From positions 1 to 9,084 of the forward strand of contig JAFGIT010000235.1 in NCBI GenBank assembly GCA_016929465.1: 9,084 nt of DNA. The letters run 5' to 3'. Source of the stretch: JAFGIT01 sp016929465 [NCBI: Candidatus Coatesbacteria bacterium] (GTDB taxonomy: Bacteria; B130-G9). Both the position numbers and the translations under genes were made by a program. A model generated the notes under the pieces. That model saw only the letters and a program-made list of their open reading frames with translations. It made no database searches and was not told the DNA's origin. Position 1 is the first letter of the stretch. Every line of letters begins with the position of its first letter. Below, in pieces: positions 1 through 8,501 of the stretch.

Positions 1-162
1 GGCCTCGAAGCTCAGCGTGACCGGCAATCGCTCGAGCAAGGCGAGAGCCTCCGATTCGGAATAAAAGAAGCCCTCGGAAGACGCGATGATGCGAGCCGCC
101 GCTTCCATGGCAGAGGGTGAGGGCGTCCCGGATATCGTCACCGAGAATCGCGAGGGCGTCAA
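1..162 (-). CDS. bL12-CTD-like membrane protein, fourth tandem paralog (partial, cut by window edge)
   Basis: This is the first 54 codons of a fourth member of the tandem family that occupies 159-2288; the rest lies beyond the left edge. The visible part matches the N-terminal domain of its neighbours: a strand (FSVTISG), then ARIIASSEGFFYSESEAL, a leucine-rich LLERLPVTLSFEA, with the same spacing. I chose a TTG start at 162-160 because it gives an N-terminus only two residues longer than the paralogs. It also overlaps the upstream TGA stop (shared bases 160-161) and has AAGGAG at 176-171, eight bases upstream. An internal ATG (codon 19) would delete the first strand and is less likely. The function is unknown. 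By analogy it should continue into a linker and about four membrane segments. Confidence 0.8.
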   Translation of the reverse strand, partial: MTPSRFSVTISGTPSPSAMEAAARIIASSEGFFYSESEALALLERLPVTLSFEA

Positions 163-863
163 TTGAACCACTCCTTGATCGGCCGGTGCATCAGCGTGCA
201 AAAGAGGTGGAAGCACATTATGCAGACCATGATCGAGGCGACGAACAAGCCGAAATCGGATGGACCGAAGAGCCCCACCAGGAGGTAACACCCGACTACG
301 AGGGCAGAGGCCAGCACACCTATCATCGATGCAACGACGGCCAACGCGTAGCCCTCTGTTCCTCTGACGCTGATCGCTGCCAGGGCGGGGAATACAAACG
401 CCATCAATAGCGCCGGATATGACGAAATTACTGCCATTGAAGGAGCGATGAAACTCCCTATCCAAAGGGTCAGAGCGGACCACACGACGATGCTCCAGAG
501 TATCTTCGGTATCCTATTGAACCGCTTCTCGTATCGCTCCAGCTGCTCATCCGTGAAGTGCTTTTCGAGGCCGAATCTCGGAATGGGATTGCAGACGGAG
601 AGGTCCCCCGACCGGTTGTCCCCCGTCTCGGAGTTCCTCACAGCATAGCTCAGCTCGCAGCCGGCCTTGTGTAGCGCGGTAAGCGTCTCCTCCCCTTTCT
701 TCTGCTCTGTCTCGAACGTGAGCTTGAGCGGAAGCGTCCCGAGTATCTCCATTGCCTCCTTCTCGCCATAGAAGAAGCCGGGCGAGCTCGCAATTATCCG
801 TGCAATATGCTGCCTCGCAGCGTAGGATGCGACCTCGGTGATCGTTACGGTGAACTCAGCCAT
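159..863 (-). CDS. bL12-CTD-like membrane protein, third tandem paralog
   Basis: This 234-residue protein has a soluble N-terminal domain (about 1-75) and a hydrophobic C-terminal half. The N-domain runs strand (EFTVTI), helix (AARQHIARIIASS), helix (EKEAMEILGTLP), strand (KLTFETE), helix (GEETLTALHKAGC), strand (ELSYAV). This order and the residue pattern resemble the C-terminal domain of ribosomal protein bL12, which is inference from pattern only. A linker (about 76-104) leads to FTDEQLERYEKRFNRIPKILW, a juxtamembrane block shared by the family, then about four membrane segments (roughly 121-140, 147-166, 172-198, 204-225). It ends in a basic-aromatic tail (RPIKEWFN). ATG lies three bases after the previous stop with no clear Shine-Dalgarno, suggesting coupled translation. 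Its tail is the most diverged of the three complete copies. I do not recognise a named family. Confidence 0.82.
   Translation of the reverse strand: MAEFTVTITEVASYAARQHIARIIASSPGFFYGEKEAMEILGTLPLKLTFETEQKKGEETLTALHKAGCELSYAVRNSETGDNRSGDLSVCNPIPRFGLEKHFTDEQLERYEKRFNRIPKILWSIVVWSALTLWIGSFIAPSMAVISSYPALLMAFVFPALAAISVRGTEGYALAVVASMIGVLASALVVGCYLLVGLFGPSDFGLFVASIMVCIMCFHLFCTLMHRPIKEWFN
171..176 (-). promoter_or_regulatory. Ribosome binding site supporting the TTG start of the fourth paralog
   Basis: AAGGAG sits eight bases before TTG (162-160), within the Lys-Glu codons near the end of the third paralog. It is the only clear Shine-Dalgarno among the four paralogs and supports the overlapping TTG start. 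Confidence 0.65.
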
Positions 864-896
864 CTATCAAGAGAACCAACGGCGTACGGGCTTTTT
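850..896. repeat. Direct repeat copy A at a paralog junction
   Basis: This 47-base segment spans the end of the second paralog (KKPVRRWFS, stop) and the start of the third (MAEFT). It matches the segment at 1546-1592 at 43 of 47 positions. It looks like a remnant of tandem duplication. Confidence 0.8.
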
Positions 897-1559
897 GAGC
901 AACAAGATAAAGAGATATCCGCAGATGATAATCGCGATTAAGTTGCAGAAGAGGATGACCCAGCCTATGACATCGCTATATGGAGAACTGATGATTTCAA
1001 TGGCCCAATTGAGCATGAAGACATTGATTAAAAAGCCCAATAGACTGGCGCCCAAGCAGGTGACGTAGCCCCATAGCTCTGCACCCTTGGCCCCGATTGC
1101 TGCGAAGCCAAATAATGCGACCTGAATGGGGGCAGCGATCATCATCGGCATTACCCACAGCCAGATCCCAAGGACCCAGCCAATAACAAAGAAAAATGCT
1201 GCAAGAGACCAGAAGACCTTAGGGAGCCATCCAAATCGTGACTCCATGGCCTCAAGTCTCTCCTCACTGTAATCTGAGATCAGGCTTCGCTCCGCAAATT
1301 GGCCCCCTCTCTTGTGCTCCCATACATCTTCGTCAACAATGAATGAGAGATCGCAGCCAGCGTCCTTCAGTCTCTTGATGGTCTCCTGGCCCTCCAAATG
1401 CTCCGATTCAAACGTCAGCGTTGCCGGGAGCATTGCTAGGAGCTCTCTCGCTTCATCCTCGTTTATGAAAAAACCCTCCGAAGTGGCAATAATCCGCACG
1501 GCTCTCGCCTTGGATGCGTCAGACTTGAAGCCCATTATGGATAGCGTGAACTCAGCCAT
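867..1559 (-). CDS. bL12-CTD-like membrane protein, second tandem paralog
   Basis: This 230-residue paralog has the same architecture. The N-domain at 1-76 has EFTLSIMGF, a helix with ARAVRIIATSEGFF, EDEARELLAMLP, LTFESE, then IKRLKDAGCDLSFIV; the Gly-Cys pair near 68-69 is kept in all complete copies. The juxtamembrane block is SDYSEERLEAMESRFGWLPK. About four membrane segments follow (roughly 116-135, 139-157, 162-186, 197-221). The C-terminal tail KKPVRRWFS is identical to that of the first paralog. The start ATG is three bases (GAG) after the upstream TGA, and the only possible ribosome site is a weak GAGAG touching the start. The gene ends TGA-TAG just before the next ATG. Function unknown; its position downstream of the two ATPase genes suggests a membrane partner of that machinery. 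Confidence 0.83.
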   Translation of the reverse strand: MAEFTLSIMGFKSDASKARAVRIIATSEGFFINEDEARELLAMLPATLTFESEHLEGQETIKRLKDAGCDLSFIVDEDVWEHKRGGQFAERSLISDYSEERLEAMESRFGWLPKVFWSLAAFFFVIGWVLGIWLWVMPMMIAAPIQVALFGFAAIGAKGAELWGYVTCLGASLLGFLINVFMLNWAIEIISSPYSDVIGWVILFCNLIAIIICGYLFILLLKKPVRRWFS

Positions 1560-1592
1560 CTCTCAAGAGAACCAGCGGCGCACGGGTTTTTT
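1546..1592. repeat. Direct repeat copy B at a paralog junction
   Basis: This is the partner of 850-896, spanning the end of the first paralog and the start of the second. The four differences are three synonymous changes in the tail codons and one change in the three-base spacer. Confidence 0.8.
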
Positions 1593-2288
1593 CAGTAGCG
1601 TGAAGACCAGATGCAGTGTGAATACAAACGGCACGGCTGCACTCACGACAAAAGCCCAGTTCATAACCGCGATCGGCCCTATTTGAGCAATTCGCACCCT
1701 AATCTGTCCGCTGTATATCGCGAAAATAGCTCCCCCAATAAGCCCCCAACTCACGAATGTAGCGAGTATTGTTGACAACAAAGCAAGCACGTAGCCGCTC
1801 AATCCCTGATTTGATACTCCAAATATTGCCAATAGAAGCAGCACAAGAAGAACTGGGCACGTAAAGGCAACGCCATAGGCCCCCAGAAGGGTTGCCTGAA
1901 GGGCAATCACAAACGTCCAAGCGAACAATCCCCACAGGATTCGGGGCATACGGTTTAGAGCCCTTTCGGCAATGAATAGCTGCTCCTCGTTGTAATCGCT
2001 CTCGAGCGGCTTCTTGCCAAGATATCGCTGCGGCTCTGGCCGTGCTTTCTCGGGCTCAGCTTCGACTCGATACGACATCCGGCACCCCATCTCCTGCAGC
2101 GACCGGAGAATCTCCTCGCCCTTGCCTCTTTCCACATCGAACGCAAACTCAACTGGTAATGAGCCAAGCAGATCCAATGCCTCGGTTTCGGAAAGCGCGA
2201 ATCCCGGCGAGCTAGCGATTATTCGAGCCGCGGAGGCCTTTGCATCGTCCGAGGCGAAGCCTGCGATGCTGATGAGGAATTCGGTCAT
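1563..2288 (-). CDS. bL12-CTD-like membrane protein, first tandem paralog
   Basis: This 241-residue protein is the promoter-proximal and longest complete member of the family. The N-domain is at 1-75: EFLISIAGF, helix with ASAARIIASSPGFALSETEA, LLGSLPVEFAF, then helix GEEILRSLQEMGC and strand RMSYRVE. A charged linker (76-96) is rich in Glu, Pro, Lys and Arg. SDYNEEQLFIAERALNRMPR precedes about four membrane segments (roughly 116-135, 140-157, 164-192, 205-231), and the tail is KKPVRRWFS. ATG lies 12 bases after the stop of the PilT-like gene, with no recognisable Shine-Dalgarno. The bL12/ClpS-type fold serves elsewhere as a docking module (bL12 for translational GTPases, ClpS for a AAA+ unfoldase). 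A docking role here is inference. Confidence 0.83.
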   Translation of the reverse strand: MTEFLISIAGFASDDAKASAARIIASSPGFALSETEALDLLGSLPVEFAFDVERGKGEEILRSLQEMGCRMSYRVEAEPEKARPEPQRYLGKKPLESDYNEEQLFIAERALNRMPRILWGLFAWTFVIALQATLLGAYGVAFTCPVLLVLLLLAIFGVSNQGLSGYVLALLSTILATFVSWGLIGGAIFAIYSGQIRVRIAQIGPIAVMNWAFVVSAAVPFVFTLHLVFTLLKKPVRRWFS

Positions 2289-2300
2289 ATCGAAGAGGCG

Positions 2301-3368
2301 CTACGCATTTCTGAAGCCGGCAGGATTCCGGGCGTTGTTGATCGCGGTGTCGTACGAAATCACTCCGCGCTGATAGAGGTTCTTCAGGCAGCGGTCCATG
2401 CTGATCATCCCCTCGCCGGTTCCGGTAAGCAGTATGTTGTCCAATGCCTGCAGCTTACCGTCTCTGATCACGTTCCTGACCGCCTGGTTCGCGATGAGTA
2501 TCTCGTAGGCGAGTACCCGCCCCCTACCATCGAGGGTGGGCACCAGGAGCTGTGAAATGACTGCGACCAGCGAAGACGCGAGCTGTGCCGCTATGTGGTT
2601 CCTCTCCTGCGCGGGGTAGGCATCGACTATCCTATCGACGGAGCCGGTCGCGCTTTGCGTATGAAGCGTGGCCAGCACCAGGTGCCCTGTATCCGCAGCA
2701 AGGAGGGTGGTCGTGATCGTCCCGAGGTCCCGCATCTCCCCGACGACAATCACGTCGGGATCCTGCCGCAGAACGTGTACCAGGCCGGTGTTGAAGTCGT
2801 CGAAATCGGTGAGCATCTCCTGTTGGACAACGATACTCCTCTGATGCTTGTGGTAGTATTCGATAGGGTCCTCCAGCGTCACGATCTTGCTCCGGCGTGT
2901 GGAGTTGATCGAGTTGATCATGGTATTCAACGTGGTCGTCTTTCCCATGCCGGTCGCGCCGGTAACGAGTATGAGTCCAGCCTTCCTATCGATCATCTCG
3001 TTGACGAAGTTCGGAAGCCCAAGCTCGGAGACCGAGACTATATCGCTAGTTGCGAGCCTTATGGCCGCCTCGACGTTGCCTTTGCTCCTATATAAGGTCA
3101 CACGGCCGTAGCCTATTCCCTCGAAGTAGATCGACACACACAGCCGTTCCTGCTGGTCGAAGCTCTGCCACAGAGATTCCGCTATGATGTCCTTCAAAAG
3201 GTCCTTGATCTCACCGGGCTTGAACGGCGCCCCCGGCATTCGGGCGATCTCCCCATGTGACCGCATCATGGGCGGCGCGTCGGTCACCAGATGCACGTCG
3301 GATGCACATGCCTCGGAGGCGAATTTCAGAATCTCTGCTAGTGATTGAGTGCTCAGTGAATCAGTCAA
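2301..3368 (-). CDS. pilT: PilT-type secretion/twitching ATPase
   Basis: This 355-residue protein has the usual length of PilT, the hexameric type IV pilus retraction ATPase. An N-terminal PAS-like region (about 1-105) begins with the typical pattern of a helix and ASDVHL. The ATPase core has Walker A GATGMGKTTT (137-146), Asp box VTLEDPIEY (163-171), Walker B VIVVGEMRD (206-214) and His box HLVLATLHTQSA (229-240). A C-terminal AYEIL...AVRNVIRDGK block (287-305) matches the PilT AIRNLIRE region. All catalytic motifs look intact. The start is TTG, eight bases inside the end of the zinc-ribbon gene. AGGAGG seven bases upstream and the correct family N-terminus support it. No pilin, PilB, PilC or secretin gene is in view, so the ATPase may drive something other than pilus retraction. 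The family call is firm; the role is open. Confidence 0.92.
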   Translation of the reverse strand: MTDSLSTQSLAEILKFASEACASDVHLVTDAPPMMRSHGEIARMPGAPFKPGEIKDLLKDIIAESLWQSFDQQERLCVSIYFEGIGYGRVTLYRSKGNVEAAIRLATSDIVSVSELGLPNFVNEMIDRKAGLILVTGATGMGKTTTLNTMINSINSTRRSKIVTLEDPIEYYHKHQRSIVVQQEMLTDFDDFNTGLVHVLRQDPDVIVVGEMRDLGTITTTLLAADTGHLVLATLHTQSATGSVDRIVDAYPAQERNHIAAQLASSLVAVISQLLVPTLDGRGRVLAYEILIANQAVRNVIRDGKLQALDNILLTGTGEGMISMDRCLKNLYQRGVISYDTAINNARNPAGFRNA

Positions 3369-4371
3369 CTAAGAACCTCCTGGATTGTGGTGGCAGAATG
3401 ACTCCTATCGGCTTTCCCATGAGCTCATCCCTAGTAACGATCCAGCCAACGCGGCCAGAAACGATAAAATACTCGTTCTCGTTGAGAGATATATCAAGCT
3501 CTACAGTCGGCTGCCAGTCGGGATGAAGCTCAACTGGGACCATGAAATTCACGGGATTGCCGAGAATCGAGTCGCCTTTGATACTGAAAATCTGAATTCT
3601 GCGTCTCCCTGTTACCACACGCTCGCCGGGCAGTCCCACTATGCGGCCGAGATAATAACCGAGCCGGCCTGCGATCCGAAAGTGAGGATTAGCAGCGAAT
3701 CGCCTTGTTACCCCGCGATGCAGAACTATAGTTCCTCTATCGAAGCTTTCGTATGGGAGACCGCTGATCCGCACGACCGCTTCCTCTCCGTGCATCAGGA
3801 GGGGGGCCAGATTGTCGGACCGGACCTCGACCGCGCGGAAATTTTCGCCAACCAACCACCAGCCCAGGATTATTACGATGAGAAGCGGTAGCACAACCAA
3901 AGCCCCATGGTCTTTTCTCGTGGCTTGCTTACGCGAGGCAATCGCGCCAGAGTATGCCGCTGAGAAAAGGGGAAAGAAAACGAGAAGCAATGCAGTCAGG
4001 TTGGAGAAGGGCTGGTACCAGAATAGTGCGCTAAGCCCGGCCAGCGTGAGGAATATGCCAAAGAAAAAGACTGCTTGGCGCGGTTTGCCGAGAAGAAGAT
4101 GGCCAAGGCCCGGTATAAAGCCCAGGCACGTGACTAATACGGTCCTGAGCTGTACGGGAGCGCTCAACTCGAACCTCTTGGGCTCCAACCTCTTCGAAGC
4201 TCCGCGGCGGCCCTGGCTCCCGAAAAGGCGGCTTAAGAAGCTGGTTCGCCCCTTTCGTCCGGCCCTTGGCGGGTATGTGCGATCGAGGGGCCTCGCGTTG
4301 AAATCAAAGCCGCAGACGGGACATGTCTTTGTCCCGGGGACACTCTCCCATTCGCAGTTGGGACACTCCAC
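3361..4371 (-). CDS. Zinc-ribbon membrane protein with a catalytically dead signal-peptidase-I-like domain
   Basis: This 336-residue protein starts with a CPNC...CPVC zinc ribbon (Cys 3, 6, 17, 20), then a basic stretch with FLSRLFG (45-51). About four hydrophobic segments follow (roughly 76-96, 99-118, 124-145, 157-175). Residues 181-330 look like the peptidase S26 fold of signal peptidase I. VRSDNLAPLLMHGEEAVV aligns with the SGSMxPTLxxGDxV box, GRIVGLPGERV with KRxxGLPGDxV, and NENEYFIVSG...ELMGKPIGVI with the last conserved box. The nucleophile Ser is replaced by Asn187 and the general-base Lys by Gly242, and the GDNRxxSxDSR stretch is missing. It is therefore probably a substrate-binding pseudoenzyme. 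GTG is the start, with CAGGAG nine bases upstream; an ATG nearby would cut the ribbon. Alternatively the match is only to the S26 beta-fold. Confidence 0.85.
   Translation of the reverse strand: MECPNCEWESVPGTKTCPVCGFDFNARPLDRTYPPRAGRKGRTSFLSRLFGSQGRRGASKRLEPKRFELSAPVQLRTVLVTCLGFIPGLGHLLLGKPRQAVFFFGIFLTLAGLSALFWYQPFSNLTALLLVFFPLFSAAYSGAIASRKQATRKDHGALVVLPLLIVIILGWWLVGENFRAVEVRSDNLAPLLMHGEEAVVRISGLPYESFDRGTIVLHRGVTRRFAANPHFRIAGRLGYYLGRIVGLPGERVVTGRRRIQIFSIKGDSILGNPVNFMVPVELHPDWQPTVELDISLNENEYFIVSGRVGWIVTRDELMGKPIGVILPPQSRRFLVD
3376..3381 (-). promoter_or_regulatory. Ribosome binding site that fixes the TTG start of the PilT-like gene
   Basis: A full AGGAGG Shine-Dalgarno sits seven bases before the TTG start at 3368-3366, inside the last codons of the upstream zinc-ribbon gene. 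It is the strongest ribosome site in the operon and supports the non-ATG start and the 8-base gene overlap. The ATPase may be made at high level, or the strong site may compensate for TTG. Confidence 0.75.
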
Positions 4372-4390
4372 AGTACTCTACTCCTGGCAA

Positions 4391-4624
4391 TCAGGTGGTC
4401 TTGACCTTGCCCTCAATTTTCTCAGAGGCTTCAGTCTCGATTCGCACCTCACCATCGTAATATTCGTGGGTGAACTCGGTGTCGCCATCGGCGTTGAGGG
4501 CCTTCTTTATCGCCTCGGCATATTCGAGGCATCCCTTTCCCTTGATACCGGAGACCTTGAATTCGACCCTTCCGTCAGGCTGGATCTCTATGTCGATGTC
4601 AACTCGCTTGTCCTTTCTGATCAT
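4391..4624 (-). CDS. DUF2997-like small protein
   Basis: This 77-residue protein opens with two strands (VDIDIEIQPDGRVEFKVSG), then GIKGKGCLEYAEAIKKAL, a helix starting at the Gly-Lys-Gly-Cys-Leu turn, and an acidic segment with HEYYDGEVRIETE. The DG-V hairpin, the GKxCL helix start and the EYY motif are the hallmarks I know for DUF2997. In other bacteria this family sits beside DUF1257 and Ycf46-type genes, which is also the case here. Its biochemical role is not known to me. ATG is five bases after AAGGAG, and the gene lies 20 bases after the TPR gene and 19 bases before the zinc-ribbon gene. It is slightly longer at the C-terminus than the shortest family members I recall, ending in a lysine-rich tail. 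Confidence 0.82.
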   Translation of the reverse strand: MIRKDKRVDIDIEIQPDGRVEFKVSGIKGKGCLEYAEAIKKALNADGDTEFTHEYYDGEVRIETEASEKIEGKVKTT

Positions 4625-4644
4625 AGCCTCTCCTTATCCCAAAT

Positions 4645-5427
4645 CTAACCAAATAGCCTCTTGAGAAAACCTCCGAAGCCCCCTGTGGTCACAGCAAGTT
4701 CCCTTTGAAGCTGTTGAGCCTCTCTCGATGATGGCTCGAGCTCGAGAACCCGCTCTAACGCCTGCTCAGCCTGTCGAATGTGCCCCATGCCCCTGTAAGC
4801 GAGACACAGATTCAGCCATATATTGCAGTTCGAGGGGCACTTCTGCGCAGCCTCGTCCAGATACTTAACGGCCAGTAGGAACTTACGCAGACACAAACAC
4901 GATCGGCCAATAGCGAGGTGGGCGCGAAAACCTGAACCCGGAACCGCTGCGGCCTGGGAGATGCAGAGCTCAGCATTTCCCTTCCCGCCGGTCTTGATCA
5001 AAAGCTCCGCCCTCGATAGCCAGGCCATCATCGCAAAGCGGTCCTCTCGCTTGTGAGAGCATGAAACCGCCTTGTCCACCCAGAGCATCGCCTCTCTCGT
5101 GAATCCCTGACGGCTGAGCAAGCTCGCCTTGCCGGCGAGAATCCCCGGCGTCTCCCCCAGCTCATTCGACCCGCGGTCTGCCCAGACATCTGCCTCATAG
5201 AGCTCATTCATTTCGATCAGGCACCATACCTGTCCAGACCAGGCCGTCGGATTCAGATACTGGTGCCGCAGAACGCGCGAGTAGGTCCTTAATGCGCTCT
5301 CGAATGATCCTTTCCAATAGAGGTCCCACGCTGTATCGAGAAGCAGCTCGGGAGTCTCCTCGGGCGAATCATCCCCCGACAGGAAGGGATTTTTGCGGTC
5401 AAATTCCAGATACTCGAATCTACCCAT
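4645..5427 (-). CDS. TPR-repeat protein
   Basis: This 260-residue protein is almost entirely helical-hairpin repeats. Clear TPR-like units are at about 27-60 (ending LNP), 61-92, 133-163, 167-199 (ending CPSN) and 201-233 (ending LELEPSS). The last is the most canonical, with the small residues and the Pro expected of a TPR. The N-terminus MGRFEYLEFDRKNPF has no repeat. The C-terminus is a glycine-rich linker followed by FLKRLFG, a short amphipathic end that recurs inside the zinc-ribbon protein. No signal peptide or membrane span is visible, so it is probably a cytoplasmic scaffold. GGAG eight bases before ATG supports the start, and it lies 13 bases after the DUF1257-like gene. TPRs give no substrate information, but the setting suggests it bridges complex members. 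Confidence 0.85.
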   Translation of the reverse strand: MGRFEYLEFDRKNPFLSGDDSPEETPELLLDTAWDLYWKGSFESALRTYSRVLRHQYLNPTAWSGQVWCLIEMNELYEADVWADRGSNELGETPGILAGKASLLSRQGFTREAMLWVDKAVSCSHKREDRFAMMAWLSRAELLIKTGGKGNAELCISQAAAVPGSGFRAHLAIGRSCLCLRKFLLAVKYLDEAAQKCPSNCNIWLNLCLAYRGMGHIRQAEQALERVLELEPSSREAQQLQRELAVTTGGFGGFLKRLFG

Positions 5428-5440
5428 ACATCAAGCTCCG

Positions 5441-5911
5441 CTAGCTCAATCTCCGTGCCTTGATTCGTATCCGATGGCTCTCGTCCAATTCCTCCTCGAC
5501 AATGTTGAATCCCCTCGACCGGAGTTCCTTCATCACCTTGGAGTACGCATATTGCTGGACCATCTGGTTCAGGAAATCCTGTCCGATCTGTCTCAGCTCG
5601 ACGGCCGACTTCCCCTCTCCCTCCACGCAGACCTTGAACCTTCCCCCGAGATCGGCGGTGAAATTTAGCGTGATATCGCCGCGCCTAACGACAAAGCCCT
5701 CTTTCGGAGCGACCTGCTCTCCCGCGAGCTCCGAGTTCTGAAGCTCCAGATCAACTTTCGTGGATTTCTTGACGGTAGTATCCTCGGTCAGCCTCTTGTC
5801 GCTGCACGCAACTTCATACCCGAGCTTGGCGGCAGCAGCGGCTGCGACTCCGCATAGGATTGGCCATCCAGATATAATCACAGGGACTGCTACGACACAG
5901 ATACAGGACAT
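5441..5911 (-). CDS. Ycf35/DUF1257-like protein
   Basis: This 156-residue protein carries the C-terminal signature of the DUF1257 (Ycf35) family: QDFLNQMVQQYAYSKVMKEL (111-130), then RGFNIVEEELDESHRIRI and a final basic-aliphatic strand. Family members typically read FLxxxxQxYAYxxVxxxxxxxGF(x)xxEE...DGxIRLxxxRW. The middle (about 66-97) has paired strands such as RRGDITLNFTADLGGRFKV. The N-terminus is unusual: residues 1-31 are hydrophobic and alanine-rich with Cys 3, 5 and 20, unlike the MSHFxxxxT start I know for Ycf35. It could be a divergent first strand-helix unit or a membrane contact. ATG follows AGGAG by seven bases, and the gene is 27 bases downstream of the Ycf46 gene, its usual partner. 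Function is not established. Confidence 0.8.
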   Translation of the reverse strand: MSCICVVAVPVIISGWPILCGVAAAAAAKLGYEVACSDKRLTEDTTVKKSTKVDLELQNSELAGEQVAPKEGFVVRRGDITLNFTADLGGRFKVCVEGEGKSAVELRQIGQDFLNQMVQQYAYSKVMKELRSRGFNIVEEELDESHRIRIKARRLS

Positions 5912-5938
5912 TTCTACACTCCTATCATCGAATCCAAA

Positions 5939-7489
5939 TTACAGCTCCAAACGCCGGCCTCGCGCTTCTGCCTTCTCGTCCTCGTTTAATGATGCTGGTC
6001 TTGTCCTTGCAGAAGCCCAATCTCGAAGCTCGTCGATACGCTCCTGCATCATCCGCGAGAGCGGGATCAGCTCGCCCATACTCTTTATGATAGCCTCCTC
6101 ATTAAGGTCCTTGCCCTGGTCAAAAACGTCGTAGAGCGCGGAGACGATGCACTGCTCTATTTCTGCCCCGCTGAATGCTGGGCACTTCTGTGCGAGGATT
6201 GGCACGTTGAATTCCCTCGGGTCTCGATCGCGCTTCTTCAGATGTATGCCGATTATCTCCTCCCTCTCTCTCTGCGAGGGGAGGTCAACGAAGAATATCT
6301 CGTCGAGTCGCCCCTTTCGCAGAAGTTCAGGAGGGAGGCTCGAGATGTCATTAGCCGTCGCAATCACGAACACCGGGGAGGTCTTCTCCTGCAACCAGGT
6401 CAGGAAAGTGCCCAGCACACGCGAGGCCGTTCCCGCATCGGAAGCACCTCCGCCTGCCATCCCGGCGAAAGACTTGTCGATTTCGTCGAGCCAGAGGATC
6501 GCTGGCGCAACTGATTCCGCGACATCTATCGCCTTACGCATATTCTCCTCCGAGGAGCCAACGAGCGAAGAGAACACCTTGCCCATATCGAGCCGCGTCA
6601 ATGGGACACCCCAGACCGAGGCGACCGCCTTGGCGCAGAGACTCTTACCGCAGCCCTGGACTCCTATCAGCAGTATGCCTCTGGGCGCTGGCAGACCGAA
6701 TTGCTTTGCCTTAATCGAGAAGGCAGCAGCTCTCTTGCCGAGCCAACCTTTGAGCTCCTCCAGCCCGCCGATGTCGCCGAAATTCTCTCCGGCCGGATAG
6801 TAATCGAGAACACCCGACTTGCGGATGATCTGCTTCTTCTCCTCCAGGATGTCAGCTATGTCATCCTCGTCGAGGCGTCCACCGGTCACAATCGACTTCG
6901 CGAAGACGTTCTCGGCTTCGAGGAGCGTCAATCCCAAGGCAGCCTGGGTGATCTTCTCCTTGATAGGATCGGACGGCGCTATCTTAAGATCGGTGCTCTT
7001 GTTCACATCCTCGATAGTGGCATTGAGAAGCTGCATCAGCTCTGATTGGTCCGGCAGGCCGAATTCGATCTCGGTTATTTCCTTCTCCAGTTCAGAGGGA
7101 ATCGCGTCCTGGGACGACATGATGAGGACCGTGTTGAAGCTCGACTTCAGGAAAGCAAACAGGTCCCTGGTCTTGCGGATGATCTCTGGGTCCTTCAAAT
7201 ATGGATGGAAGTCCTTGAGCAGAATGAGGCTGGGATCGTTCTGATCGAATACCCACTGCAGGACGCTCAGCGGGTCCTTGGTGCTCTTGTTCTCCTTCTG
7301 TGGAGCAACCCTGGAGCCGATGCCACCGTCGTGGATTCCACGAGTGATCGTCCAGCAGAAGAATTTCTTGCCCCGCTTCGCAGCTATCTCGGCAAGTATC
7401 GTCTCGACCCTCTGCTCCTCCCAGGTCTTGATATAGATCAGCGGGTATCTTGCCCTTATCAGAACATCAAGGTCTTCCTTGAATCCCAT
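5939..7489 (-). CDS. ycf46: Ycf46-type AAA+ ATPase
   Basis: The protein is 516 residues, a typical Ycf46 length. The N-terminal half begins with the family pattern EDLDVLIRARYPLIYIKTWEE (5-25). It then runs through WTITRGIHDGG, SLILLKDFHPYL (87-98) and VLIMSSQDAIPSELEKEI, which read like Walker B and sensor 1 of a degenerate AAA domain without a Walker A. The C-terminal AAA core has Walker A GVQGCGKS (276-283), Walker B ILWLDEID (331-338), sensor 1 FVIATAND (374-381), Arg-finger region RKGRLDE (391-397) and sensor 2 region SGAEIEQ (440-446). The frame is open 35 codons further upstream. I place the start at the ATG at 7489 because AAGGAG is nine bases before it, family homology begins there, and the radical-SAM stop is one base away. 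Ycf46 has been linked to photosynthesis regulation in cyanobacteria; the role here is unknown. Confidence 0.93.
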   Translation of the reverse strand: MGFKEDLDVLIRARYPLIYIKTWEEQRVETILAEIAAKRGKKFFCWTITRGIHDGGIGSRVAPQKENKSTKDPLSVLQWVFDQNDPSLILLKDFHPYLKDPEIIRKTRDLFAFLKSSFNTVLIMSSQDAIPSELEKEITEIEFGLPDQSELMQLLNATIEDVNKSTDLKIAPSDPIKEKITQAALGLTLLEAENVFAKSIVTGGRLDEDDIADILEEKKQIIRKSGVLDYYPAGENFGDIGGLEELKGWLGKRAAAFSIKAKQFGLPAPRGILLIGVQGCGKSLCAKAVASVWGVPLTRLDMGKVFSSLVGSSEENMRKAIDVAESVAPAILWLDEIDKSFAGMAGGGASDAGTASRVLGTFLTWLQEKTSPVFVIATANDISSLPPELLRKGRLDEIFFVDLPSQREREEIIGIHLKKRDRDPREFNVPILAQKCPAFSGAEIEQCIVSALYDVFDQGKDLNEEAIIKSMGELIPLSRMMQERIDELRDWASARTRPASLNEDEKAEARGRRLEL

Positions 7490-7490
7490 C

Positions 7491-8501
7491 TTAAGTAACT
7501 CCTTTTGTTGGAAAAGCAACCGATCGCAGCGAATCCGCAATCTCCGGAACCGACGGCGACTGAGACTCGAAGACCACGGTGCCATCACTATCAATAGTCA
7601 TCTCGAGCAGCTCGTCCGACGCTGCATCTATTTTATATCGAGGCGATTCATCTGTCGCTCCGCGCCCAATTAGGCTGAATTCGATCCCGCTCTCTGTCAA
7701 TAGCGACTCTGCGTTTTCTATCTCCTCATCGGACAGCGGCCCCCAACTGCCCGATCTCGATATATCCACGTCGTAGGGGGAGAAGTTCGTGAGGAGGCTG
7801 AACTTCCGCGCGGGAATTCGGCTTGCGATATTTACTACTCCACGGAGGCAGCACTCGCCATGCCCTGGCAGCAAAAGGTGACGAAGCAGGAGCTTATCGG
7901 CTTCGATCCGCTCCAGGTTAGCGTTGAGTACTTCGAGGTAGCCGGGCATGTTCGCAATCTCTTCTGCGCAGCGATCATTGCCGAAGTGCACATCGACTAT
8001 GAATATATCCGCGACGCTCTTAATCAGCTCCAATGCCTCATTTACTACATAGAGGTTCGTGTTCCATACGATCGGAACCATGCCCTTGAACCTCCAGGCC
8101 AATTCGAGCGAGCCGTTGAGCGAAACCGATGGCTCGCCGCCTATGATGCTAACGGTTCTGACTGTCCCGCTCTCGACAAGCGTCTTCGCCTCCGCGATCG
8201 CCAAATCGAGGTCCGCCAACGTCAATCCGCTCTCGAGCTGGGCGGTCCGCGTCGAACAGAAGCTGCATGCCATATTGCAGCCCGAGAACCAAAAGGCGTA
8301 CGTCGGAGATATTTCCGGCTCTTCTCCTATGAGCAGGCCGGAGCGAAAGACGCGTCCCGAGGACGACGCGCCGCAGAAGCCGACCTCGGACCTGTCTCTG
8401 TGGACCTCACAGCCCCTCGGGCAGACTACGCAGGGCGAAGTCAGCTCACGGGCCCGTTCTAGTATCGACCCAATTTGACCAGCATATCCGTGCGCTGTCA
8501 C
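7491..8501 (-). CDS. PflX-like radical SAM protein with C-terminal extension
   Basis: This 336-residue protein has two cysteine clusters. The N-terminal one is C24xxC27PRGC31 followed by VGFCG with Cys43, the CPRxC...GxCG pattern of the PflX/COG1313 branch of radical SAM proteins. The radical SAM motif is GC75NMAC79SFC82, a canonical CX3CX2C for the [4Fe-4S] cluster that cleaves S-adenosylmethionine. GGEP (121-124), WNTN (146-149) and DVHFGND fit the barrel. After about residue 280 comes an unusual tail with EMTIDSDGTVVFE, a beta-hairpin and a helix. GTG is the start, with AGGGAG eight bases upstream. It is the first gene after the promoter, and its stop is one base from the Ycf46 start. The substrate is unknown: it may modify a partner protein or carry redox chemistry, in a position where other Ycf35 clusters have, as far as I recall, a ferredoxin. 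Confidence 0.87.
   Translation of the reverse strand: MTAHGYAGQIGSILERARELTSPCVVCPRGCEVHRDRSEVGFCGASSSGRVFRSGLLIGEEPEISPTYAFWFSGCNMACSFCSTRTAQLESGLTLADLDLAIAEAKTLVESGTVRTVSIIGGEPSVSLNGSLELAWRFKGMVPIVWNTNLYVVNEALELIKSVADIFIVDVHFGNDRCAEEIANMPGYLEVLNANLERIEADKLLLRHLLLPGHGECCLRGVVNIASRIPARKFSLLTNFSPYDVDISRSGSWGPLSDEEIENAESLLTESGIEFSLIGRGATDESPRYKIDAASDELLEMTIDSDGTVVFESQSPSVPEIADSLRSVAFPTKGVT
7499..7504 (-). promoter_or_regulatory. Ribosome binding site that decides the Ycf46 start
   Basis: AAGGAG lies nine bases before the ATG at 7489-7487, within the last codons of the radical-SAM gene. It argues for the 516-residue form over a 551-residue form whose extra 35 residues are an arginine-rich run translated from the other frame of the upstream gene. 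Confidence 0.75.

Follow-up and report, generated by a model that had tools for sequence, protein, structure and literature searches.

Ycf46, an AAA+ ATPase, and Ycf35 (family DUF1257) are conserved from bacteria to red algal plastids, and DUF2997 is found in bacteria; their mechanism is not known. DUF2997 adjoins ycf35 in Synechocystis in a DUF2997-ycf35-fed7 cluster (PMC4284462). A stress-induced operon containing ycf46 and a ycf46 mutant with reduced extracellular carbonic anhydrase activity have been reported, and Ycf46 has been treated by Jiang et al. 2015 (Planta) (all as cited in PMC7496141). Many freshwater red algal plastids lack ycf34, ycf35, ycf46 and pbsA (PMC5940233). This work concerns the 9,084-bp contig JAFGIT010000235.1 of the bacterium JAFGIT01 sp016929465 (Candidatus Coatesbacteria), analysed as a whole and called the window. 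On it, genes for Ycf46 (Y), DUF1257 (D) and DUF2997 (d) stand in one row with genes for a radical-SAM protein (R), a TPR protein (T), a zinc-ribbon protein with a signal peptidase-like S26 domain (Z) and a PilT-type ATPase (P). These seven genes are a conserved, membrane-associated module. Its TPR protein shares a short N-terminal motif, RFxxLE, with unrelated proteins encoded beside Ycf46.

The module holds the same three families that are known from cyanobacteria and plastids, and the window Ycf46 is 44-45% identical to named cyanobacterial Ycf46 over about 500 residues. In the cyanobacterial loci fetched, by contrast, the module profiles for PilT, the S26-like protein and the radical-SAM protein match nothing near Ycf46. 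The module PilT shares a full-length TIGR01420 match, Walker motifs and an AIRNLIRE-like motif with PilT and PilU of type IVa pili; it groups separately from the other family members compared and is encoded beside Ycf46 without pilus genes. Protein Z shares a beta-domain profile match with signal peptidase I (S26, e.g., SpsB), from which it differs in the missing catalytic Lys, in a Ser that is replaced in the window protein and kept in two homologues, and in an added zinc ribbon and hydrophobic segments. No description of the seven-gene set or of RFxxLE was found in those parts of the searched open-access literature that were accessible. The extended module gives concrete partners for Ycf46, Ycf35 and DUF2997.

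Recurrence of the seven-gene module

An earlier note on this DNA had proposed that Ycf46, DUF1257 and DUF2997 are embedded in a larger membrane-associated system. As a test it named the recurrence of Ycf46 and DUF1257, in unrelated lineages, close to a zinc-ribbon S26 protein and a PilT-like ATPase. This recurrence was found. A DUF2997 family search of 386 genomes gave 22 carriers. The gene set was present in six more genomes of six other families (G163, G221, G304, G275, G264 and, with five genes, G131), which came from loci around DUF2997 carriers and from one locus of a search with the S26-like protein. Further loci were taken from a Ycf46-alignment scan of named genomes (the best 80 of 580 confirmed matches), and frequencies among them are not prevalences. 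When 104 loci were scanned with seven profiles, all seven genes were found in 14: the window, L041, L042, L043 (Ycf46 truncated at a contig end), L044, L058, L061, L062, L066, L080, L081, L086, L088 and L094. Six genes are present in L046, L070 and L082, five or six in L056, L073, L074 and L089 (the last three truncated by a contig end), and three in L090; the pair of radical-SAM and Ycf46 genes occurs without the full set in L057, L059 and L069. The detailed locus table comprises 25 loci picked from the 104. The named host phyla are Planctomycetota and Verrucomicrobiota, with six genes also in Chloroflexota.

Gene order differs by lineage (RYDTdZP, RYDdZTP and RYDTdPZ); this favours maintained linkage over recent copying. 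The module-adjacent PilT proteins group together, 18 of 18, with a Shimodaira-Hasegawa-like approximate likelihood-ratio test (SH-aLRT) support of 80, or of 95 with one further PilT of G163 included. The other 27 family members in the tree, from ten genomes and in part PilB-like neighbours, lie separately; these comparison proteins were drawn from 30 loci only. The PilT of L087, encoded 7 kb from Ycf46, falls among the non-module PilTs. This grouping and the co-occurrence of the seven genes in unrelated lineages mark the set as a conserved module. In the Ycf46 tree, 18 module loci lie in one clade of 26 rows (support 90), and L042, L070 and L082 lie elsewhere.

The genes could instead be co-transcribed housekeeping neighbours with no common function. 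Gene order does vary between lineages, and the module was seen in seven of the 386 genomes, 55 of which have Ycf46 at the threshold used. However, seven families adjacent in distant lineages, in shuffled order and with PilTs that group together, do not fit chance adjacency, and the idea is largely refuted and highly improbable. A chance cluster was likewise ruled out by recurrence across loci. The host phylum is represented by four genomes in the searched set; DUF2997 and the S26-like protein had no match in the three family-mates of the host, Ycf46 is present in G001 and G002, and none was found in G003. A second Ycf46 of the host genome (G000) lies outside the module, at C359:3425-4690 (locus L267).

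All gene families named in the earlier note were recovered by Pfam or NCBIfam matches and alignments. In the alignment, the AAA+ protein of the window shows intact Walker A (GVQGCGKS) and Walker B (LWLDEID) motifs in its C-terminal AAA domain, ahead of which lies an N-terminal region of Ycf46 type. We take its name to be Ycf46, which is borne by no Pfam or NCBIfam match of the window protein. Curated cut-offs were exceeded by DUF1257 (PF06868, 30.8 vs 22.2 bits, residues 109-150), DUF2997 (PF11211, 51.8 vs 24.1 bits) and PilT (TIGR01420, 390.9 vs 319.1 bits, residues 10-349). The radical-SAM protein presumably resembles PflX/COG1313. A hydrophobic N-terminus is typical of module DUF1257 and is missing from seven of ten aligned non-module DUF1257s; the orphan DUF1257 copies in L003 and L045 also have it. 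The AAA domain matches models of IetA (8.2e-25), which would suit an anti-phage system of the IetAS kind in which Ycf46 replaces IetA. This match spans the AAA core common to CDC48 and FtsH, however, and no IetS subtilase was found among the window genes, so that IetA and IetS do not occur together there. IetAS-like defence was rejected on the absence of IetS from the window, to which the search for defence genes was confined, and is scarcely credible.

RFxxLE starts beside Ycf46

The most testable new lead, which lay outside the expectations of the earlier note, is the start of the TPR protein. All 22 module TPR proteins begin with RF-x-x-L-E (20 by pattern, L082 and L089 by eye; L134, which is not within a module, is left out). 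The same start was first noticed in unrelated Ycf46 neighbours at loci without the module. The first motif rule was loose and was set after the motif had been noticed; a strict rule was then applied to a later set of loci, and to both sets with antisense controls. By the strict rule, 39 of 129 loci (34 in the first set of 89, 5 in the second of 40) have an RFxxLE start on the Ycf46 strand no more than 3.5 kb downstream of that gene, as against two of 129 upstream (L097 convincing, L073 probably chance) and none of 129 on either antisense control. Six of the 129 loci have less than 400 bp downstream of Ycf46. L104 is doubtful among the loci of the strict count, and L043 (Ycf46 truncated), L076, L082 and L089 stand outside the 39 and have the motif or a close form by other readings.

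The second set of 40 loci was fetched after the motif was first noticed. There, N-terminal RFxxLE was found in 5 of 213 downstream open reading frames (ORFs) and in 0 of 659 others (Fisher P 0.0008, or P 0.011 when two internal matches among the others are counted); these ORFs are mechanical, of at least 110 residues, and not independent.

Carriers of the motif have five kinds of body: TPR, NHL propeller (the Armatimonadota type), double zinc ribbon (L068, of Omnitrophota, and L076), SNF2 helicase (Chloroflexota and the cyanobacterial metagenome-assembled genome RYN_339, where the protein is encoded near Ycf46 at L121) and a family without Pfam match (the Myxococcota type). BLAST among 17 carriers showed no relation between kinds except for one 23-residue match. 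Five named phyla are represented among the non-TPR carriers (Armatimonadota, Myxococcota, Chloroflexota, Cyanobacteriota and Omnitrophota), and the TPR carriers add Planctomycetota, Verrucomicrobiota and Hydrogenedentota, for eight phyla. In the double zinc ribbon carriers the motif, or a variant close to it, occurs twice. A second RFxxLE-like copy was also seen in Myxococcota-type carriers, e.g., at L063 and L244. A second copy in one protein would suggest several docking points. G163 encodes a second RFxxLE TPR protein, of module type by eye (L212, G163:C25:78785).

Docking motifs of AAA+ adaptors have precedents in SspB on ClpX and in the SHP and VIM peptides on p97. RFxxLE is like these in being a short terminal peptide common to unrelated partners of one AAA+ ring. 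It is unlike them in that its action on Ycf46 is deduced from genomes. The motif does lie in the first residues of proteins encoded beside Ycf46, and this genomic pattern predicts that it binds Ycf46. Were it to do so, Ycf46 would be an AAA+ machine that its partners can programme. The module would then count as a new membrane system, present in Planctomycetota and Verrucomicrobiota among other groups.

A proposed membrane-tethered remodelling module and its alternatives

The earlier note had stressed two ATPase motors, membrane proteins and a dead protease fold. The module does encode two motor ATPases and membrane proteins, and its S26 domain lacks the catalytic pair; it is plausible that its proteins form a membrane complex that moves or remodels proteins. 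In its specific form, the proposal is of a membrane-tethered AAA+ remodelling module in which partners dock on Ycf46 through RFxxLE; the docking and the substrate are what we infer, and we put the chances of this reading at about even. RFxxLE would serve a lineage-specific partner, in this genome the TPR protein, as the peptide with which it docks on Ycf46. DUF1257 with its hydrophobic N-terminus, DUF2997 and the inactive S26 protein would tether the Ycf46 ring at the inner membrane. The inactive S26 domain may hold a substrate without cutting it, and Ycf46 would then remodel or extract the held substrate. The PilT-type hexamer would add a second motor, working on a platform in the membrane that most likely belongs to the type IV pilus or type II secretion machinery of the host itself.

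A bolder generalisation, offered tentatively and rather unlikely as it stands, is that Ycf46 may be a widespread AAA+ protein of prokaryotes and plastids, retargeted by swapping partners (TPR, NHL propeller, zinc ribbon, SNF2 helicase and others) that all have the N-terminal RFxxLE peptide for docking. The module would then be the form of this machine that works at the envelope, a membrane complex with two motors. Substrates would be recognised by the dead signal peptidase and unfolded or extracted by Ycf46, with the PilT ring driving the membrane platform. On this reading, bacteria would have a membrane-remodelling machine of a new kind.

The zinc-ribbon protein is probably a membrane protein, to judge by eye from its hydrophobic segments, and its S26 domain was assigned from profiles and alignment. 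The profile built from 14 homologues hits signal peptidase IB (SpsB) with an E-value of 2.8e-7 across the beta domain; the single window protein is slightly under the Pfam cut-off (21.6 vs 22.9). A complete, ordinary signal peptidase in L075, with both catalytic motifs present, was likewise matched by the module profile (1.8e-35). The module proteins share the beta-domain similarity but not the catalytic pair of Ser and Lys. Lys is missing from all 19 module S26-like proteins with a readable site (L088 read by eye), a count that leaves out L041 and L070, which have no S26 part, and L075, the positive control. The site of the Ser is Asn in the window protein. A zinc ribbon was found in 16 of 21 proteins (15 by pattern and L062 by reading); the five in which none was seen are the four from Verrucomicrobiota and that of L070.

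The PilT-type ATPase allows a different emphasis. The module could be an accessory of a type IV pilus or type II secretion system. Its PilT would then be an additional retraction motor resembling PilU, and pilus assembly or pilin turnover would be regulated by Ycf46, the TPR protein and the S26-like protein. Such a reading is possible and, on balance, improbable. The protein is a full TIGR01420 member with an AIRNLIRE-like motif and may power pilus retraction. A further PilT above the cut-off, besides the module's own, was found in 22 of 22 module-bearing genomes checked, as compared with any PilT in 309 of 386 genomes (80%); in G397 the sole extra PilT is truncated at a contig end and was judged non-module from its position. 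This count, taken without regard to phylogeny, fits the pilus reading without proving it, and PilT co-occurrence was set aside as a proof of a pilus role because PilT is present in 80% of genomes. G131 has a second DUF1257-DUF2997 pair near secretion- or pilus-type genes (L045, C9), with its five module genes elsewhere in the genome. On the other side, the module has no pilus genes, Ycf46, DUF1257 and DUF2997 also occur at loci without PilT, and three family-mates of the host have PilT but no match to DUF2997 or the S26-like protein. A type IV pilus cluster of pilin, PilB and PilC was not found in the locus. In L046 (6734-7795, G264), an in-frame stop interrupts the module PilT, which points to a decaying gene or an assembly error.

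The literature on the cyanobacterial and plastid relatives leads in another direction, that of an iron or redox stress system in which Ycf46, DUF1257, DUF2997 and the radical-SAM protein tend an iron-sulphur or redox target at the membrane. The presence of fed7 in the Synechocystis DUF2997-ycf35-fed7 cluster (PMC4284462), the older works on the stress-induced ycf46 operon and on the mutant (via PMC7496141), and the joint absence of pbsA, ycf34, ycf35 and ycf46 from many freshwater red algal plastids (PMC5940233) are in its favour. It leaves PilT, the inactive S26 protein and RFxxLE partners like the SNF2 helicase without a role, however, and the window has no ferredoxin gene. We regard it as unlikely, an idea to which roughly one chance in several can be given.

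The reading as a membrane-tethered remodelling module has to be held against several results, all of which weigh against it. The strict RFxxLE start is absent downstream of Ycf46 in 90 of 129 loci, and in 35 of the 40 of the second set, so that a linked tagged partner is not needed by Ycf46. The count of 39 loci repeats homologous TPR proteins, and the independent evidence is the five kinds of protein body. A MxRFxxLE DNA pattern in 17 genomes gave 24 matches, six of which are module-type TPR genes, as compared with 19 for the reversed control. This pattern allows Arg as CGN only and one residue before it, and the AGA-coded motif of the window falls outside it; a genome-wide RFxxLE regulon is unsupported by this restricted pattern. 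L042 and L056 keep Ser at the Ser site (by eye), so that the dead protease of the earlier note stands as far as the catalytic pair is concerned (Lys in 0 of 19) and not for the Ser in every homologue; the S26 part is absent from the L041 and L070 homologues altogether. Support for the grouping of the module PilTs is modest. Pilin, PilB and PilC were found neither in the window nor among the seven recurrent families, and the pilus link is drawn from membership of the PilT family, which is common (309 of 386 genomes). The DUF1257 model has no match among PDB or viral models at E <= 0.001, and the DUF1257 fold was dropped as a functional clue because the model matches no solved fold.

The gene row, the tandem membrane family and other genes near the module

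The window spans the whole of contig C374, one of 423 in a 3.19-Mb metagenome-assembled genome that is 86% complete, and the end of the gene row is therefore missing. Ten complete genes and one partial gene follow ispE and a 153-bp space on the minus strand (Table 1), in agreement with the claim of at least ten co-directional, nearly abutting genes. Along the row, the gaps are 1, 27, 13, 20, 19, -8, 12, 3 and 3 bp in this order; two gene pairs overlap, and the largest gap is 27 bp. The listed ORF of the window Ycf46 begins 105 bp further upstream than the start given in the table, and membrane segments were assigned by eye throughout. The earlier note placed the row behind one promoter. One plausible sigma-70-like site was indeed seen in the space after ispE, and such sites occur in the window at chance level (6 found vs 4.4 expected), so that a single promoter is at most possible.

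Table 1. Genes and other features of the window, in the order of the minus strand
Feature	Position	Strand	Remarks
ispE, 3' part	9083-8655	-	precedes the 153-bp gap
Candidate sigma-70-like promoter	8581-8553	-	in the ispE/radical-SAM gap (153 bp); 10/12 consensus matches
Radical-SAM protein (R)	8501-7491	-	PF04055, E 9.6e-14; CxxxCxxC and N-terminal CxxCxxxC
Ycf46-type AAA+ ATPase (Y)	7489-5939	-	PF00004, 9e-30
DUF1257/Ycf35 (D), hydrophobic N-terminal segment	5911-5441	-	PF06868
TPR protein (T), N-terminus MGRFEYLEFD	5427-4645	-	TPR families
DUF2997 protein (d)	4624-4391	-	PF11211, 7.3e-14
Zinc-ribbon and S26-like protein (Z), hydrophobic segments	4371-3361	-	profiles, alignment
PilT-clade ATPase (P), motif AVRNVIR (AIRNLIRE-like)	3368-2301	-	TIGR01420
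Membrane protein M1	2288-1563	-	L7/L12 C-terminal-domain-like domain (modelled) and four long hydrophobic helices
Membrane protein M2, paralogue of M1	1559-867	-	
Membrane protein M3, paralogue of M1	863-159	-	
M4, partial fourth paralogue, cut by contig end	162-1	-	presumed TTG start overlaps the TGA of M3

Contamination of the assembled genome by this contig was considered and is unlikely. Compared with the window ispE, the ispE genes of two family-mates show 50% and 45% identity and those of the two other genomes that matched 24% and 28% (five of ten searched genomes matched, its own included), and from this comparison the contig most likely belongs to its genome.

The tandem membrane proteins M1-M4 are a local accessory set outside the conserved module. 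Homologues were found in none of 59 other genomes or 103 other loci scanned, and the family was seen on this contig only. This result speaks against the earlier suggestion that a variable membrane family is part of the system, and the M family was rejected as a module part. A model of M1 (confidence score, pLDDT, 75.6) shows a predicted beta-alpha-alpha-beta-alpha-beta domain followed by four long helices. Its best PDB match is 1ctf, the C-terminal domain of L7/L12 (template-modelling (TM) score 0.76 on the target, E 0.018; none below 0.001). The next five matches are L7/L12 entries or ribosome chains, and ClpS ranks 31-32; by sequence, the match of M1 to L7/L12 is very weak. The modelled N-terminal domain would thus have the L7/L12 C-terminal topology, a fold that it would share with ClpS. 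M1 differs from both proteins in the four long hydrophobic helices that come after the domain. The resemblance of this modelled fold to an AAA+ adaptor is suggestive only.

Other genes were seen near the module at single loci or in some lineages. The DUF1257 gene is tandemly duplicated within the module of L080 (5034-6002). A small protein of 62-96 residues with an ILPDGRI-like start is encoded at several loci, either in the space separating the radical-SAM and Ycf46 genes or at another place (L044:12255-12488, L057:5524-5739, L061:3453-3638, L094:5470-5757 and perhaps L082 and L045); the protein of L094, the one tested, has no Pfam family match. A rhomboid/DUF1751-like membrane protein is encoded directly upstream of the radical-SAM gene in L057 (where the rhomboid match itself is below the cut-off), L058, L080 and L088; through it, some lineages may have a protease in their module.

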